Part shown: in pieces, positions 47,103 to 56,956 of the stretch
Layout: every line of letters begins with the position of its first letter
Position numbering within the stretch: the first letter of the stretch is position 1
Source: Rhizobium sp. Q54
Lineage (GTDB): Bacteria; Pseudomonadota; Alphaproteobacteria; Micropepsales; Micropepsaceae
Direction: 5' to 3'
Assembly (NCBI GenBank): GCA_945882615.1
Contig: CAMCWK010000002.1
Span: 1-64,000, forward strand
DNA length: 64,000 bases
Made by a program: the position numbers and the translations under genes
The notes under the pieces: generated by a model
The model's input: only the letters and a program-made list of their open reading frames with translations
Database searches by the model: none
What the model was told of the DNA's origin: nothing

Positions 47103-48296
47103 TTAGGGCAGGAAAACCATCACCGCCGGAGCGCCCACCGCCAGGAACTTGCCGGTGAATTTCGGCACGCCCATGGGATCAAGCCGGAAAGTGGCAATGT
47201 TGTTGGCCCGCAGGTTCAGCGAATAGAGGAACTTGCCCGTCGGATCGATGGTCAGGCTGCGCGGGTGCTGGCCTTCCGTCGGGGTGGTTGCAAGCTTGGT
47301 CGCAAGGCCGCCCGGCGCAGTCGCAAAGGTGGCGATGGAATTGTGGGTGCGGTTGGCCGAATAGATGTGTCGGCCATCGGCGGAGACCAGCAGGCGCGAG
47401 GCCGAGCCGCTGCCCTGATAGCCCTCCGGCATGGCTGAGATGCTCTGGCCCTTGGACGTCAGCTTGCCATTTGCGAAGCCGTAGGTCGTCAGACGGATAT
47501 TGAATTCCCCGATCTGGTACAGCGTCTTGCCGTCCGGCGAAAAGCCGAAATGGCGCGGCGCCGAACCGGCCAGCGCGTTGGTGACGGAGACTTGCGTCAG
47601 CTTGCCGGTGCCGGTGTTGAGCCGCCAGACGAAAATCTTGTCGCGCCCCGCATCATCGCCCACCACATACTGGCCGGATGGATCGGTGGCGATCATGTGA
47701 CCGCGCGTGATGCGGTTTGGTTCGGAACGCCCCTGCCCCGGCGGCGCGTCCACCGCGCTGGCGGAATTGGTCGGACCGCCCGGCTTCACGACATCGGTGG
47801 CGTCTCCCAGGCTGCCATCCGCCTTGATGGGGATGACGGAGAAGGTGCCGCCGGTCCAGTTGGCGACAAGCGCAAACCTGCCGGATGGATGGATGCTGAC
47901 ATAGCAGGGAACGGCGCCCCCGGAGCTCACACTGTTGAGCTTCCGGAGCGCGCCGCTCGCCTTGTCGACCGCATAGGCGGTGACCGAACCGCTTTTGTCC
48001 GGGCCATAGCTGTCGGTTTCATTGATCGCGTAAAGAAACCGGTTGTCGGCCGACAGTTCGAACCAGGCCGGCGACCGGTCTTTCGCCACCAGCTTGAGGC
48101 CGGACAGCGCGCCGGTGACATCATCGATATTCGCCAGATAGATGCCTTCGCCGCTGCCATGGGCGTAGACGCTCGGGTCCGCCAGATTGGGCGTGTAAGT
48201 GCCGATATAGGCGCGCGCCGCATGAGCACTGCCGGTGCTTGCCATCAGGCCCGCTGTAAAAGCAGCCAGGGCGGCGGCGCAAAGGCGATTTTTCAT
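47103..48296 (-). CDS. Lactonase family (6-phosphogluconolactonase-like) beta-propeller, secreted
   Basis: A 397-aa protein with signal peptide (CAAALAAFTAGLMASTGSAH) followed by a seven-bladed propeller of the PF10282 type: ARAYIGTYTPN, AIPCYVSIHPSGRFALVANW (first residue differs), NRITRGHMIATDPSGQYVV, APRHFGFSPDGKTLYQIGEF and GQHPRSLTIDPTGKFLYSLN. The ATG at 48296 has GGAG 8 nt upstream; the longer frame to 48326 is not needed. About two thirds identical by eye to the gene just upstream: a tandem duplicate. Being exported, it is unlikely to be the cytosolic Pgl. Confidence 0.88.
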   Translation of the reverse strand: MKNRLCAAALAAFTAGLMASTGSAHAARAYIGTYTPNLADPSVYAHGSGEGIYLANIDDVTGALSGLKLVAKDRSPAWFELSADNRFLYAINETDSYGPDKSGSVTAYAVDKASGALRKLNSVSSGGAVPCYVSIHPSGRFALVANWTGGTFSVIPIKADGSLGDATDVVKPGGPTNSASAVDAPPGQGRSEPNRITRGHMIATDPSGQYVVGDDAGRDKIFVWRLNTGTGKLTQVSVTNALAGSAPRHFGFSPDGKTLYQIGEFNIRLTTYGFANGKLTSKGQSISAMPEGYQGSGSASRLLVSADGRHIYSANRTHNSIATFATAPGGLATKLATTPTEGQHPRSLTIDPTGKFLYSLNLRANNIATFRLDPMGVPKFTGKFLAVGAPAVMVFLP

Positions 48297-48325
48297 GTCA
48301 GATCTCCACCGGCCGCCGCGCCTCA

Positions 48326-49513
48326 TCAGGGAAGAAAGACCATCACGGCCGGGGCGCCCACCGCCAGAAACTTGCCGGTGAAGTGCGGCACGCCCTGGGC
48401 GTCGAAGCGGAAGGTGGCGACATTGTCGGCGCGCTGGTTCAGCGAATAGAGGAACTTGCCTGTGGGATCGATGGTCAGGCTGCGCGGGGTTTCGCCCTCG
48501 GTCGGGGTGGTGGTGACTTTGCTGGCGATGCCGTTCGCCCCCACCGCGAAAGTGGCGATGGAGTTGTGCGTGCGGTTGGCGGAATAGACGTGTCTGCCAT
48601 CGGCTGAGACCAGCAGCTCCGAGGCCGAGCCGCCGCCCTGATAGCCGCTGGGCATCGCCGAGAGGCTGGCACCCTTGGGTGTCAGCTTGCCGTTCGCAAT
48701 GTCATAGGTGGTCAGGCGAATATTGTATTCGCCGATCTGGTATAGCGTCTTGCCGTCCGGCGAGAAGCCGAAATGGCGCGGCGCCGACCCGGCCAGTGTC
48801 TTGGTGACCGAGACCTCGGCCAGCTTTCCGCTGTTCACGTCCAGCTTCCAGACAAAAATCTGGTCGCGTCCGGCATCATCGCCCACCACGAACTGGCCGC
48901 TGGGATCGGGCGCGATCATGTGGCCGCGGGTGATGCGGTTCGGCTGCGACGGCGCCTGTCCCGGCGGGGCATCCACCGCGTTGGCCGAGTTGGTCGGCCC
49001 GCCCGGCTTGATCACGTCTGTGGCCGCGCCCAGGCTGCCATCGGCATTGATGCGGATGACCGCATAGCTGCCACCGGTATAGTTGGCGACCAGCGCAAAC
49101 TTGCCCGACGGATGAATGCTGATGTGGCAGGGAATGGCGCCTTCCGAGCTGACCACGTTGAGCAGCTTCAGCGCGCCGGTGGTGGGGTTCACGGCATAGG
49201 CGCTGACCGAGCCGCTTTTCTGCGGATTAAAACTGTCCACTTCGTTCACGGCGTAAAGAAACTTGCCGTCCTTCGAAAGCGTCATCCAGGTGGGCGACAG
49301 GGTCTTGGCGACCAGACGAACGTTGCCCGGCGCGCCGGTGGCATTGTCCACATCCACCAGATAGATGCCCTCGCCGCGATTGCTGGACGGCGCGCCCGCC
49401 GCGTTCGGCGTGTAGGTGCCGATATAGGCGCGCGCCGCATGGGCGGCACTGGCGCTGGCCAGCAGCCCGGCGGTGAAGGCTGCCAGAGCTATGGTGGGAA
49501 GCAGAATTTTCAC
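48326..49513 (-). CDS. Lactonase family beta-propeller, secreted (tandem paralogue)
   Basis: A 395-aa protein with signal peptide (KILLPTIALAAFTAGLLASA) and the same propeller motifs as its downstream paralogue (ARAYIGTYTPN, AIPCHISIHPSGKFALVANY, NRITRGHMIAPDPSGQFVV, APRHFGFSPDGKTLYQIGEY). GTG 49513 is chosen over ATG 49537: GAGGAG lies 8 nt before it and the signal peptide then has normal length. Likely first gene of the lactonase-lactonase-amidohydrolase operon. A 12-bp palindrome lies just upstream. Confidence 0.88.
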   Translation of the reverse strand: MKILLPTIALAAFTAGLLASASAAHAARAYIGTYTPNAAGAPSSNRGEGIYLVDVDNATGAPGNVRLVAKTLSPTWMTLSKDGKFLYAVNEVDSFNPQKSGSVSAYAVNPTTGALKLLNVVSSEGAIPCHISIHPSGKFALVANYTGGSYAVIRINADGSLGAATDVIKPGGPTNSANAVDAPPGQAPSQPNRITRGHMIAPDPSGQFVVGDDAGRDQIFVWKLDVNSGKLAEVSVTKTLAGSAPRHFGFSPDGKTLYQIGEYNIRLTTYDIANGKLTPKGASLSAMPSGYQGGGSASELLVSADGRHVYSANRTHNSIATFAVGANGIASKVTTTPTEGETPRSLTIDPTGKFLYSLNQRADNVATFRFDAQGVPHFTGKFLAVGAPAVMVFLP

Positions 49514-49536
49514 GGGGTCTTCTCCTCTGGAAGTCA

Positions 49537-49548
49537 TTTGCCGGCAAA
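49537..49548. promoter_or_regulatory. Palindrome TTTGCCGGCAAA upstream of the lactonase operon
   Basis: A perfect 12-bp palindrome 24-35 nt before the GTG start of the first lactonase gene, in the 173-bp gap shared with the divergent trpG. It could be an operator of the LacI type. A dozen or so 12-bp palindromes are expected by chance in 64 kb, so only the position speaks for it. Confidence 0.25.
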
Positions 49549-52509: not shown

Positions 52510-52562
52510 AACGAAAACGGCGGTCCCATGGACCGCCGCTTCGTTACGCAACTTGAACTGCC

Positions 52563-52832
52563 TTAGAACGTGATCCAGACGCCGCCACGGCCCCAATAGC
52601 CACGGCGAGGCGGGGCATCGCGCCAGCGATAACGACGGTTATCGCGGGCATGCCAGCGCCAATTGTCATCATAGATGCGCAGGCCCCAATGGGGGCGATA
52701 GTCGTAGCGCGTCGTGGTGCGCCAGCAATCGCCATAGCGGTTGCAGACCACCGCGGCCGATGCCGTTTCCACCGAGGCGACTATCGCGCCGGCGGCCACC
52801 AGCGCACTCAAGGCAAAGGTCTTCAGTTTCAT
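52563..52832 (-). CDS. Small secreted Arg/Trp/Tyr-rich protein
   Basis: An 89-aa protein with a clear signal peptide (MKLKTFALSALVAAGAIVAS, cleaved after ASA). The mature part starts VVCNRYGDCWRTTTRYDYRP and continues rich in Trp, Arg, Tyr and Gly, a type of small exported protein common in Alphaproteobacteria without known function; the two Cys may pair. The longer frame upstream runs into lexA and is a shadow. It is divergent from lexA and shares the intergenic region with the LexA operator (start to operator 90 nt). Confidence 0.75.
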   Translation of the reverse strand: MKLKTFALSALVAAGAIVASVETASAAVVCNRYGDCWRTTTRYDYRPHWGLRIYDDNWRWHARDNRRYRWRDAPPRRGYWGRGGVWITF

Positions 52833-52906
52833 GACGAACTCCGTCGAAGATACCGCCCTTCGGACATAGAAACGGCGCTTGAGGATTTGTGTTCCGCGCC
52901 GATCCG

Positions 52907-52936
52907 TTGACGTCGGGGGTAGAACTAAAGTAGAAC
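52907..52936 (+). promoter_or_regulatory. lexA promoter with overlapping LexA operator
   Basis: GAACTAAAGTAGAAC (52922-52936) is the exact inverted form of the alphaproteobacterial LexA box GTTC-N7-GTTC. A promoter-like TTGACG (52907-52912) and TAGAAC (52931-52936) with 18-nt spacing straddle it, so bound LexA would cover the -10 element. It lies 50 nt before the lexA ATG. Autoregulation of lexA through such a site is established in the class. Confidence 0.85.
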
Positions 52937-52986
52937 GATTCGCCGCGTACCGGCTTTGTTCGCCGCCCTTTTCCGGGAGAGATCTC

Positions 52987-53724
52987 ATGCTGACCCGCAA
53001 GCAATATGAATTGCTGATGTTCATCCATGAACGGGTGCGCGAAAGCGGTGTGCCGCCCTCCTTCGACGAAATGAAGGAGGCGCTGGACCTCAAATCCAAG
53101 TCCGGCATCCACCGCCTGATCACCGCGCTGGAAGAACGCGGCTTCCTGCGCCGGATGGAAAAGCGCGCCCGCGCGCTGGAAGTGCTGAAGCTCCCCGACA
53201 ACATGGCCGAGACCGTGCGTCCCGCCACCACCCGCAGCCAGGTCCAGCGCAGTGCCGCGGGCCGCCATGGCCGCACCGATATCCGCATGGCCGACAGCCG
53301 TTCCCCTGCCCCGCGCCGCAGTTATGGCGAAAATGGCGAAGGCGCCATCAATGTGCCGCTGGTCGGCCGCATCGCCGCCGGCACCCCGATCGAGGCGCTG
53401 CAGAACAAGATGAGCGACATTCCCGTTCCCGGCGGCATGCTGGGCAAGGGCAGCCATTACGCGCTGGAAGTGACCGGCGACTCCATGATCAATGCCGGCA
53501 TTCTGGACGGCGACACCGTCATCATCCAGGAAGCCGACACCGCCAACACCGGCGAGATCATCGTCGCGCTGGTGGACAATGAAGAAGCCACCCTGAAACG
53601 CCTGCGCCGCCGCGGCGACTCCATCGCTCTCGAGGCCGCCAACCCCGCCTATGAAACGCGGCTCTACGGCGCCGATCGGGTCAAGGTGCAGGGCAAGCTG
53701 GTCGGGTTGATCCGGCGTTACTGA
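52987..53724 (+). CDS. lexA: SOS-response repressor LexA
   Basis: A 245-aa repressor that cleaves itself with RecA* after DNA damage. N-terminal winged helix ([40 protein letters not shown]), a ~50-residue linker (about 75-120), the Ala-Gly cleavage site in [11 protein letters not shown], catalytic Ser in [16 protein letters not shown] and Lys in [11 protein letters not shown]. The N-terminal sequence is the alphaproteobacterial type. GGGAGAG precedes ATG 52987. The SIR2-like gene begins 17 nt behind the stop. Confidence 0.97.
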
Positions 53725-53741
53725 AAAGCCCGGTCAGCGGA

Positions 53742-54920
53742 ATGTTTCATACACCGACTGTCTTTATCCTCGGTGCAGGCGCTAGCTGGCATTACGGCTA
53801 TCCTACCGGTGAAGACCTCGTGCCTCAGGTCGTTGCAGCCGCGCAGAAATTGGAACAATTTTTTCGATACGGCGCTGCTCAGATGAGCGGCAACTTCCCC
53901 CTGTTCGCCATACGAAACCTCGAAGGCGATCAACGAACCATTCAGCCTTGGCTCACAGCAGCAGAAGAGGCGAAAGATTTGGCGTCCAGATTGGAGCGCG
54001 GAAATCCTGTACTCATCGACTATTTCTTGGCTCAGAACCAGAAGCTACATGACATTGGTAGATTGGCCATCGCATTGGCGATCCTCGAATGTGAAAAGGC
54101 CGCATTTGTCGCGCGGGGAAACCCCAATCACATCGCGCAGCATAAGCGCCGCGTTCAACAAGGCCTAGCGTCTGGACCCACACCAGTTGTGAGCGCGTTT
54201 AGCAACGATTGGGTGCGCTTCGTGCTCCACAGCCTGACAGTAAAGTGCGAAGAGCCGGGCGATCTTAAGAACAATACGGTCACGTTCGTGACTTTCAATT
54301 ACGACACATCTTTGGAACGACGGCTACATGATGGCTTATCCAGCCTGGAATATTTTAAAGAGAGTGACATAACCGACTTTTTTGCTCGCGACCGCGTGAT
54401 CCATATTTATGGAAAAGTCCGCGAACAGACTGGCGCGGATTGGAAGCCGTTCGAAACTAATTTGTCCATGGGAGCAGGGTTTCACGAGTCTGTAGCGACG
54501 TTGAACGCGATTTATAAGGCGTCGACGGGCATTAGGACCATCGATGGAGATGACAAACTAAAAAACGCAGATGCTATACGCGAAGCGAAAGTGCGAATAT
54601 TCGGTGCCCGGGATTTATATTTGCTGGGCTATGGCTTTGATGCGCAGAACAATGCGCGTCTGGGTCTGGACGAAGTAAAACCAACCGGAAAATTTAATCG
54701 CTCAATATTTTTTACTAACTTTCGCGGACTGGATCGGGTCTCATATGCTGCAGGAAAAGCGTTAGCGAGCAATCAATACAAGTTTGATGACGGCAAAACC
54801 CACGCTACGACTGAGGGATCAGATGGCGCTTACCACAGAAAGATTGATTTCCGAGTAAGTCACAAGAACGTGCATGACGCTCTCGCCGAAGATTTTCAAT
54901 TTAACGATGCAATGAGTTAG
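53742..54920 (+). CDS. SIR2-like (SIR2_2) domain protein, possible NAD+-dependent defence gene
   Basis: A 392-aa protein. Rossmann motif GAGAS (residues 11-15, VFILGAGASWHYGYPTGEDL), a helical insert like that of SIR2_2 proteins (PVLIDYFLAQNQKLHDIGRL, about 89-108), then FNYD (185-188, TFVTFNYDTSLERRL), H221 in IHIYGKV and LLGYGFDAQNN (294-304). The Asn of FNYD and H221 stand where sirtuins bind and cleave NAD+. Related lone SIR2 proteins deplete NAD+ during phage infection; that function here is inference. GC is visibly lower than neighbours (a 60-nt sample near 45 %) and rare codons such as ATA, TTA and AGA occur, suggesting transfer. It lies 17 nt behind lexA and converges on comEC. Confidence 0.82.
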   Translation: MFHTPTVFILGAGASWHYGYPTGEDLVPQVVAAAQKLEQFFRYGAAQMSGNFPLFAIRNLEGDQRTIQPWLTAAEEAKDLASRLERGNPVLIDYFLAQNQKLHDIGRLAIALAILECEKAAFVARGNPNHIAQHKRRVQQGLASGPTPVVSAFSNDWVRFVLHSLTVKCEEPGDLKNNTVTFVTFNYDTSLERRLHDGLSSLEYFKESDITDFFARDRVIHIYGKVREQTGADWKPFETNLSMGAGFHESVATLNAIYKASTGIRTIDGDDKLKNADAIREAKVRIFGARDLYLLGYGFDAQNNARLGLDEVKPTGKFNRSIFFTNFRGLDRVSYAAGKALASNQYKFDDGKTHATTEGSDGAYHRKIDFRVSHKNVHDALAEDFQFNDAMS

Positions 54921-54934
54921 CTATTTGGTCGGTT

Positions 54935-56956
54935 TTATTCATCAGCATTAGGAACCCAGGGTCGCTGCCCGCGCCACTCGCGCACGCTACTTGCTGAGGG
55001 TAGCGACAACAGATTGATGCTCCAGCCCTGACCCTCGGCCGCTTTCTTTTGATCGATCACCACTGCCGGCCCCTTGCATAGCCCTTGCGCTGCGTTGATC
55101 ACCACGACAGCGCGGGCGCAATCCTCCGATAAAGCCTCTGGCCTGAGCCCTGCGGCGATGATGGGAGGGCGGTTCACCACACAACCCAGGCCGTCGCAGC
55201 GCAGGCCGGGGATGCCGATAGCCTCGGCGACCTCGCGTCCGTCGCCGTCGCGTTTCAGCCATTCGCGCGCCACAAAATTGTTCCTGGGCTTGCGGACAAA
55301 GTGCAGCAGGCCGTCATCCCCGCGCACCGCGATGGTGACGGCGTCGCTTGCCACCAGGATGTCGGGCCTGGGCGCGAGGAAAGCCAGGATCACGCCGGCC
55401 AGCATCGGTGCGGCGCCCCACCAGCGCCAACCGCGCCGCCAGATCGCCAGCCACAATCCGCCCAGCGACATCAGTATCAGCGTGGCGAGCGGCATGGCGC
55501 TGACCAGCGACACCGAACCGGGCAGGCCCGACACCCAGCGGCCCATGTCCACCATCACGCCGATGCCCTGCCCCATCAGCTCCAGCGGCAACCGCTCCAG
55601 CCCCAGCGGCATCAGCAGAACGGACAGCGCCGCCGCCGGCATGATCCAGAAGCCCATCACCGGCATGGCAATCAAATTGCCCAGCACCGCGTAATGGGCG
55701 GCGCGCTCGAAATAGAACAGCGTGAAGGGCGCGGTCGCCAGGCTGGCCACCAGGCTGGTCATAAGGATGCCGTGCACATAGCGATACAGCATCCCGCGCG
55801 GGTTCTGACGTTCGCGGCTCTGCTCCCATTCCGCCACCGCCAGAAGCGCCGCGACCGCCGCGAACGACATCTGGAAGCCCGCATCGATGACGACTTCAGG
55901 CCGCGCCAGCAGCAGGATGGCAGCCGCCAGCGCCAGGCTGCGCATGGTCAGGGCTGGGCGGTCGAGCAGCACCGCCGTCATCATGGTGGCCAGCATGACA
56001 AAGGCGCGCACCGCCGGCGGCGCCGCGCCGCTGATCGCCAGATAAAAGGCCGAAGCCAGCAAGGCGGCCACCGCCGCCCATTTCTTGATGGGATAGCGCA
56101 AGGCCACCGCCGGGATCGCCGCCAGAAGCGCGCGCAGCAGCCAGAAAATGCCGCCCCCCACCAGCGCCATGTGCAAACCCGAAATGGACAGCGCATGCGC
56201 CAGGCCCGCATCGCGCAAGGCCGCGTCATCCTCTTCGCTGATGCTGCCGCGGGTGCCGGTGATCAGCGAAGCGGCGATGCCGCCCATGCTGCCGGGCAGC
56301 GCGGCATGGATCCGCGCGGTCATCCGCACCCGCAAGTCTTCCACGCCTTGCGACACGCCGTCCCACAAACCGGGTTCGTGGGCGGGCGCAATGGCGCGCG
56401 CCCGGCCATAGGAAAATCCCGTGGCGCCGATGGAGTTAAAATACAGCCAGCGGCCGAAGTCGCTGGCGCCGGGCGCCACCGGCGCGGACGGCGCATCCAG
56501 CCCGGCTGTCAGACTGATCCAGTTGCCGGGGCGAAACTCCGCGCCACCCGGCACCATCACCCGCACGCGGCGCGGCGTCTGGCCCGGCGCAAAGGCGCCC
56601 GAGCGGACCTCGTCCAGCACCAGCCGCGCGCCACGTTCCCTAGGCTCGATGCTGACGATGCGGGCCGTCAGATGCGCCACGATGGCCTGGTTCAGAACCG
56701 GCGTCGCCACACTGGCCTCGCGCAGTTTGGCCAGGCCGAAACCCAGCAGCAGCGCCGCCAGCAGCGATGCGATGACGCGGGCCGGGCTCAAGGCGGCAAT
56801 GGCGATGGCGACCAGCCCAGCCGTCACCGCCAGCCAGCCGATGGCCAGGCCCGGCTCAACCGGCAGCGCGAAGTAACCGGCGGCCCCGGTGCCCAGCGCG
56901 ACCGGCAGCCACAAGGGCCAGCGATCAGCCTCGAAATATGCCGGAATTGCCCCCAC
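54935..56956 (-). CDS. comEC: ComEC/Rec2-family membrane protein
   Basis: A 673-aa multi-pass protein of the DNA-uptake channel family. N-terminal helices and the DUF4131 region (ARIVSIEPRERGARLVLDEV, WISLTAGLDAPSAP), then the Competence domain (LITGTRGSISEEDDAALRDA, GLAHALSISGLHMALVGGGI, SGAAPPAVRAFVMLATMMTA, LRYPIKKWAAVAAL). The C-terminal ~170 residues lack the HxHxDH metal site of the beta-lactamase-like domain found in Gram-positive ComEC. Start at 56956 (MGAIPAYFEADRW) is 47 bp from the divergent gltX. Confidence 0.85.
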   Translation of the reverse strand: MGAIPAYFEADRWPLWLPVALGTGAAGYFALPVEPGLAIGWLAVTAGLVAIAIAALSPARVIASLLAALLLGFGLAKLREASVATPVLNQAIVAHLTARIVSIEPRERGARLVLDEVRSGAFAPGQTPRRVRVMVPGGAEFRPGNWISLTAGLDAPSAPVAPGASDFGRWLYFNSIGATGFSYGRARAIAPAHEPGLWDGVSQGVEDLRVRMTARIHAALPGSMGGIAASLITGTRGSISEEDDAALRDAGLAHALSISGLHMALVGGGIFWLLRALLAAIPAVALRYPIKKWAAVAALLASAFYLAISGAAPPAVRAFVMLATMMTAVLLDRPALTMRSLALAAAILLLARPEVVIDAGFQMSFAAVAALLAVAEWEQSRERQNPRGMLYRYVHGILMTSLVASLATAPFTLFYFERAAHYAVLGNLIAMPVMGFWIMPAAALSVLLMPLGLERLPLELMGQGIGVMVDMGRWVSGLPGSVSLVSAMPLATLILMSLGGLWLAIWRRGWRWWGAAPMLAGVILAFLAPRPDILVASDAVTIAVRGDDGLLHFVRKPRNNFVAREWLKRDGDGREVAEAIGIPGLRCDGLGCVVNRPPIIAAGLRPEALSEDCARAVVVINAAQGLCKGPAVVIDQKKAAEGQGWSINLLSLPSASSVREWRGQRPWVPNADE

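Follow-up and report, generated by a model that had tools for sequence, protein, structure and literature searches.

The lexA locus and the gene behind it

The window (the whole 64,000-nt stretch of DNA that was analysed) reads, around the locus described here, trpG-trpD-trpC, a small HTH-like gene, lexA, a 392-aa open reading frame, comEC on the opposite strand, gltX and gltA, with the names of the trp genes, gltX and gltA being taken from their translations and not from profile tests. The identity of lexA is secure, its equivalog score against TIGR00498 being 175.6 bits at a cut-off of 110.95. The 392-aa frame encodes a SIR2-like protein whose immediate neighbours are lexA and comEC, and its stop codon lies 14 nt from the end of the convergent comEC. 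The features of the locus are as follows.

52907–52912, plus strand: putative -35 hexamer TTGACG of the lexA promoter, read from the sequence
52922–52936, plus strand: LexA operator GAACTAAAGTAGAAC, an exact GAAC-N7-GAAC, identical in all 30 congeneric lexA loci checked
52987–53724, plus strand: lexA, SOS repressor, 245 aa (TIGR00498 equivalog; PF01726 and PF00717)
53725–53741, plus strand: 17-nt spacer from the lexA stop to the SIR2 start, where no promoter or terminator pattern was found
53742–54920, plus strand: SIR2-like protein, 392 aa, low GC (by alignment, structure and composition; PADLOC SIR2 match weak)
53772–53786, plus strand: GAGAS nucleotide-binding loop, residues 11–15, invariant in 17 of 17 close family members
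54297–54305, plus strand: codons of N186-Y187-D188, catalytic motif (N and Y invariant, D in at least 90% of the 17; equivalent to DSR2 N133-Y134-D135 in the part of PMC11263360 available)
54402–54404, plus strand: codon of H221, catalytic histidine, invariant in 17 of 17 (equivalent to DSR2 H171 and ThsA H152, same part of PMC11263360)
54935–56956, minus strand: comEC (PF03772), convergent neighbour, usually found directly after lexA (synteny in 64 congeners)

An earlier, sequence-only reading of this stretch had pointed to a gene with GAGAS, FNYD and IHIYG motifs beginning 17 nt behind lexA and downstream of an exact LexA operator, had judged its base composition and codons to differ from those of the flanking genes, and had named comEC, just behind it, as the usual neighbour. 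These observations held: the motifs are at residues 11–15, 185–188 and 220–224 of the protein, and the gene has a GC content of 0.498 and a GC3 of 0.522, compared with 0.603–0.686 and 0.765–0.832 in nine neighbouring genes. On its composition the gene looks foreign and would have been acquired horizontally, perhaps recently. Elsewhere in the window, two adjacent, similar genes on the minus strand (47103–49537) encode secreted beta-propeller-like proteins and appear by eye to be a tandem duplication.

A divergent sirtuin of predicted NADase type

Homologs of the SIR2-like protein are sporadic. Matches were found in 9 of 96 genomes of the taxonomic family (here equivalent to the whole order, own genome included), in 11 of 385 of the class, in 23 of 306, 1 of 4, 2 of 2 and 10 of 142 genomes of four other orders, and in 9 of 349 of the phylum. 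With an alignment as the query the class gave 16 of 385, several of the matched places repeating those of the first class draw, so that this draw is in large part a repetition, and from a genome-contig collection the best 80 of 135 matches were taken; a scan of genome contigs with the single protein gave no match. Within the 96 genomes of the taxonomic family, only G031 had a close match besides the genome of the window itself. The close family was defined as 17 proteins, sixteen of them with a score of more than 230 bits to the first alignment (179 for the entry that follows) and one, L195, being added later by hand; left out were L075, split over frames, L058 and L123, both internally deleted, and L048, a piece at a contig end that lies behind nrdA. 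L058 (8694–9239 in G005) has kept both of its ends and lost its core, leaving 182 aa, and looks like a decaying copy.

All 17 members share GAGAS, YPTG, FNY and the H, Y and G of HxYG, and the window copy is full length and has every residue that is invariant among them. In the available part of PMC11263360, the catalytic pocket of DSR2 is given as N133, Y134, D135 and H171 and that of ThsA as N112, Y113, D114 and H152, and it is to this set that N186-Y187-D188 and H221 correspond, the match being one of motif order across the 17 members and not of a residue-level structural alignment. Profile searches gave no Pfam or NCBIfam match for the window protein and a weak match to PADLOC SIR2 (E 0.005–0.02) over approximately the first 35 residues. 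PF13289 (SIR2_2) likewise did not match the window protein; four of the seven members of alignment A1 matched it at E ≤1 (best 6e-7) and all seven matched PADLOC PDLC04087 (best 1e-9).

An AlphaFold model built from the 17 sequences had a pLDDT of 86.1 and a pTM of 0.86, and an earlier model from seven rows (pLDDT 74.2, pTM 0.77) gave a similar order of VIA-align results. The predicted model has a sirtuin fold. Its eight best VIA-align rows carried the titles HerA, PsSIR2 or SIR2-HerA (Z 12.1–14.1, rmsd 3.9–4.9, 236–270 residues), followed by DSR2, ThsA, KomBC and ordinary sirtuins at Z 11–12, and all 50 entries listed were, judging by their titles, sirtuins or sirtuin-containing complexes. 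Foldseek E-values were weak, there being no match at E ≤0.001 and a best E of 0.66, with ordinary sirtuins making up 14 of the first 15 rows. A search of solved structures by sequence, using the window protein, returned nothing significant. Since both the residues and the predicted fold agree, the assignment of the window protein as a divergent sirtuin, with a predicted sirtuin fold and an NADase-type active site, is well supported.

Two other affiliations were tried and set aside. Kinship with FAM118B, whose FAM118 group is described in the available part of PMC12700824 as filament-forming sirtuins similar to bacterial antiphage sirtuins, reached only E 0.43 with alignment A1 and did not appear with alignment A2. 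A label of phage- or plasmid-borne gene was also dropped, as there were no relatives at the tblastn level in phage records, none in viral contigs by an alignment-based scan, and a single weak relative (24%) on a Rhizobium replicon.

The lexA promoter and transcription signals

The bare GAAC-N7-GAAC pattern is weak evidence for an operator, because shuffled sequence is expected to have 1.27 exact boxes and the window has four, a count of four being reached in 3 of 100 shuffles; conservation is the better evidence. Among the 64 congeneric lexA loci available, 30 were checked, and every one of them (own included) has the identical 15-mer upstream of lexA, at -56 to -108. Three other alphaproteobacterial genomes likewise have such a box ahead of lexA, in one as the identical 15-mer and in the other two with one and two changes in the N7 part, and TTGACA precedes the box in three other lexA promoters. 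Another exact box (52555–52569), which lies 352 nt upstream of the putative -35 hexamer of lexA and close to the end of a small open reading frame on the minus strand, is probably due to chance.

As in a unit of the SOS regulon, a LexA operator thus stands before lexA, and by position it would govern the SIR2 gene only if the two are co-transcribed. Pattern scans found no plus-strand promoter in 52800–55300 and neither promoter nor terminator in the 17-nt spacer; the terminator-like matches found elsewhere numbered three, which is chance level, and one of them falls within the SIR2 frame, at 54600 on the plus strand. These scans are weak evidence, because lexA's own promoter was also missed, the putative -35 hexamer TTGACG not being picked up by the sigma-70 scan. 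It is possible that a promoter invisible to so simple a scan lies within the 3' end of lexA. Translation of SIR2 could be low, because the ribosome-binding site ahead of its start looks poor by sequence.

The lexA-comEC gap among congeners

For synteny, 69 congeneric genomes (own included) were searched, 67 gave a LexA match, and 64 had a true lexA (at least 76% identity, one partial) with readable downstream DNA. The SIR2 gene was at the lexA tail in 1 of these 64, its own genome, and absent there in the other 63, so that the gene is rare at this site. The usual arrangement is lexA facing comEC, with comEC at most 500 nt away in 51 of the 64 and a median gap of 29 nt. In five congeners comEC follows after 523–1649 nt, and in six (L263, L262, L264, L242, L244 and L246) gltX comes next with no detectable comEC, two of them with 958 and 1169 nt in between; the remaining two are a genome with a different order and the window. 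In addition, comEC is partial in L007 and in broken pieces in L014, and together these cases suggest that comEC has been lost repeatedly.

Long gaps of low GC (0.49–0.53) were present behind lexA in G039, G056, G055 and G061. In G039 (L261, G039:C168), the gap holds a low-GC gene on the minus strand, opposite to lexA, that matched AbiJ_NTD3 (E 6e-19), Abi_C (E 1e-20) and PADLOC AbiJ (1.7e-20), identifying it as an AbiJ-type abortive-infection gene. In G056 (L245, G056:C90) the low-GC DNA spans 1.6 kb; a 172-aa gene, 36 nt past the end of lexA, shares the lexA strand, as does a second open frame that resembles a membrane protein. The 172-aa gene looks PIN-like, but is left unnamed, as Pfam gave no match and PADLOC only E 0.011. 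In G055 a 152-aa gene with no Pfam match lies 90 nt behind lexA on the lexA strand, and in G061 the low-GC DNA has no open frame longer than 139 codons. The gaps of G054 and G010 contain genes of near-native GC, that of G010 being a solute-binding protein (PF13531) and that of G054 alike by eye. No mobile element was seen at the gap in the stretches read. Based on these varied inserts, the lexA-comEC gap is a recurrent landing site and the SIR2 gene one of several arrivals.

Neighbours of the close family

The window protein has its nearest relative, L063, in the same genus (genome G031; 45% identity, 100/100 support in the tree), on a different contig from the lexA of that genome. The genes directly upstream on the same strand include, besides lexA in the window, uvrB for L064 (184 nt) and L065 (3 nt), uvrA for L074, with overlapping stop and start, the ribonucleotide reductase gene nrdA for L080 (82 nt), a higA-like HTH gene for L056/L171, and an SPFH protein gene for L071; Pfam confirmed the UvrA, both UvrB, ribonucleotide reductase, SPFH and HTH neighbours. 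By eye, acs (L068), thiC (L067), rlmH (L069) and a HEPN-like gene (L070/L143) are upstream of others, and mnmG is the divergent neighbour of L195. The frames upstream of L054 and L072 carry no assigned names, and for L063, L066/L144 and L145 no convincing same-strand partner was found. Several recurrences may be recorded in passing: thiC precedes both a close (L067) and a distant (L149) member of the family, nrdA precedes both L080 and L048 in one genus, and G104 has two diverged members, L074 overlapping the end of uvrA and L056 behind the higA-like gene.

Four of the 17 close members, two of them at uvrB, therefore lie directly behind lexA, uvrA or uvrB. They are not one clade, the uvrA copy being outside a supported group of 13 rows that has the lexA copy and both uvrB copies, within which the tree does not settle whether the uvrB pair are sisters. 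The binomial tail for four of 17 is 5e-9, 9e-6 or 1.3e-4 for target sets of three, 20 or 40 genes, and 1e-6, 3e-4 or 2.4e-3 if the uvrB pair is counted as one event (3, n=17), figures that take the gene number as 2500, gene ends as random and cases as independent, with sets picked after the data were seen. Among 128 family or distant entries (a list made with alphaproteobacterial queries that includes split pieces of one gene, searched over at most 2.2 kb upstream), 125 had at least 300 nt upstream, and a lexA, uvrA or uvrB match was found for those four only.

SOS regulation of the family as a whole was considered and rejected, as no GAAC-N7-GAAC box with up to one mismatch was found between -400 and +150 at any of these uvr and nrdA genes. 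LexA is present in the genomes of L064, L065 and L067; no good LexA was found in the uvrA host G104 (best 31%) and none in the genomes of L080 and L071. Of all the leads from the analysis, this link to repair genes is the most surprising, and it is a post hoc one. Its boldest extension would have a branch of single-gene defence sirtuins hitching repeatedly behind lexA, uvrA, uvrB (twice) and ribonucleotide reductase and sharing their transcripts, with the lexA tail as a landing site of the genus that places immune genes under the SOS repressor, and this we regard as a long shot.

Comparison with known systems

The SIR2 subunit of SIR2-HerA (Nezha) resembles the window protein in its length of approximately 390 aa, its sirtuin fold and its catalytic set, and it gave the best VIA-align rows, the first of which is titled 'trimeric HerA' and has a chain presumed to be the SIR2 subunit. 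It differs in that a HerA gene is adjacent, whereas no HerA ATPase gene is among the immediate neighbours of the SIR2 gene here, and in that the window protein is only 13–15% identical to it in the structural alignment. DSR2 and ThsA have N-Y-D and H in the same order and align at Z of approximately 11–12, but their solved chains have approximately 950 and 470 residues compared with 392 aa; this frame lacks the large C-terminal sensor of DSR2, a protein of approximately 1000 aa. Thoeris requires a ThsA with a C-terminal domain and a neighbouring ThsB, and here the protein has 392 aa and its immediate neighbours, lexA and comEC, include no ThsB.

Regarding regulation, the available part of PMC13373217 describes control of immune operons by DNA damage through CapW/BrxR, CapH+CapP and CapK+CapS, regulators that are encoded beside those operons, in contrast to the housekeeping LexA operon that would act here by position. 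AbpAB is activated by DNA damage with neither RecA nor LexA, according to the available part of PMC10732053. The defence hotspots of E. coli, as described in the available part of PMC10121019, resemble the lexA-comEC gap in having diverse cargo at a given chromosomal site, but they are mostly on mobile elements, whereas single genes occupy this gap. In titles and abstract openings, covering few subscription papers, we found no publication that places a SIR2 gene in the transcription unit of lexA.

How the SIR2 gene may be expressed and what it may do

The reading that we favour, and hold to be rather probable, is that a horizontally acquired, single-gene anti-phage sirtuin of NADase type landed between lexA and comEC, where transcripts from the lexA promoter run on into it. 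What can be seen at the locus is the insertion itself, the integrity of the gene, its catalytic residues, the fold of its predicted model and the operator. From these we infer that the gene, inserted into a short convergent gap and retained there with no promoter of its own, would share the lexA transcript. Being autoregulated, lexA should have a basal level of expression. Read-through from its promoter would thus provide a basal level of SIR2 that rises upon LexA cleavage, and the protein would stay latent until an infection cue, when hydrolysis of NAD+ would halt the infected cell. Control by SOS would then follow incidentally from insertion at a permissive site, and might be useful, in that more protein would be made during phage attack or DNA damage.

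The sequence-only reading had gone further, to a defence protein switched on by the SOS response. Its observations are correct and amount to more than chance, and its interpretation was half right: the foreign-looking sirtuin, its catalytic residues (those of known SIR2 defence proteins), its same-strand position suited to read-through behind a lexA with an operator, and its rarity among congeners speak for it, whereas 'switched on' gives way to 'boosted by SOS', because of the basal level expected of lexA, and a dedicated SOS design fits poorly with the mixed contents of the gap, which also weaken the SOS switch as a positional argument. If such a design had been selected, genes at the lexA tail would be kept for LexA control and SIR2 would be an abortive-infection switch triggered by phage damage. 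In its favour are the exact, conserved operator, the 17-nt spacing, the first genes of the G056 and G055 inserts on the lexA strand at 36 and 90 nt and the four family members behind lexA, uvrA or uvrB, and damage-controlled immune operons do exist with other regulators (PMC13373217, available part). Against it, the AbiJ-type insert of G039 faces the other way, the uvrA and uvrB copies lack a box and G104 a good LexA, the nearest kin in G031 is not at lexA, and most members are not behind SOS genes, so that we consider it unlikely. Other low-GC DNA occupies the gap in four relatives, including the AbiJ type on the opposite strand, which suggests that the site is one that tolerates insertions, rather than one under dedicated control by SOS.

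A permissive gap could also receive neutral or selfish arrivals that pass through with no useful regulation and are heading for loss. The varied inserts of the relatives, down to the G061 DNA with no long frame, the sporadic distribution of the family and its damaged members (the 182-aa remnant in G005 and the split L075) would all be at home in such a history, which we give a real if minority chance, but the window copy is of full length with all of the residues invariant in the 17. That the protein is no defence NADase, and is instead a sirtuin deacylase or ADP-ribosyl enzyme of DNA repair or NAD metabolism working alongside the repair genes that it follows, would account for the five of 17 members behind lexA, uvrA, uvrB (two) or ribonucleotide reductase. 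It seems improbable to us, given that the NADases DSR2 and ThsA have N-Y-D and H as their catalytic set (available part of PMC11263360), that the closest folds are entries of the SIR2-HerA system, and that a low-GC, sporadic gene is unlike a repair enzyme.

Returning to the acquired anti-phage sirtuin read through from lexA, its significance depends on the transcript: if it is shared, an immune effector has come under the cell's own SOS repressor by its insertion site alone, with no dedicated regulator, in contrast to the known damage control of immune operons by regulators encoded beside them (PMC13373217, in the part available). The 64-genome comparison also provides a small natural series, comprising short gaps, SIR2, an AbiJ type, unnamed genes and low-GC DNA with no long gene, in which genes can be tracked as they arrive at, and are lost from, a single junction of core genes. 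Position alone may make this SIR2 gene respond to DNA damage.
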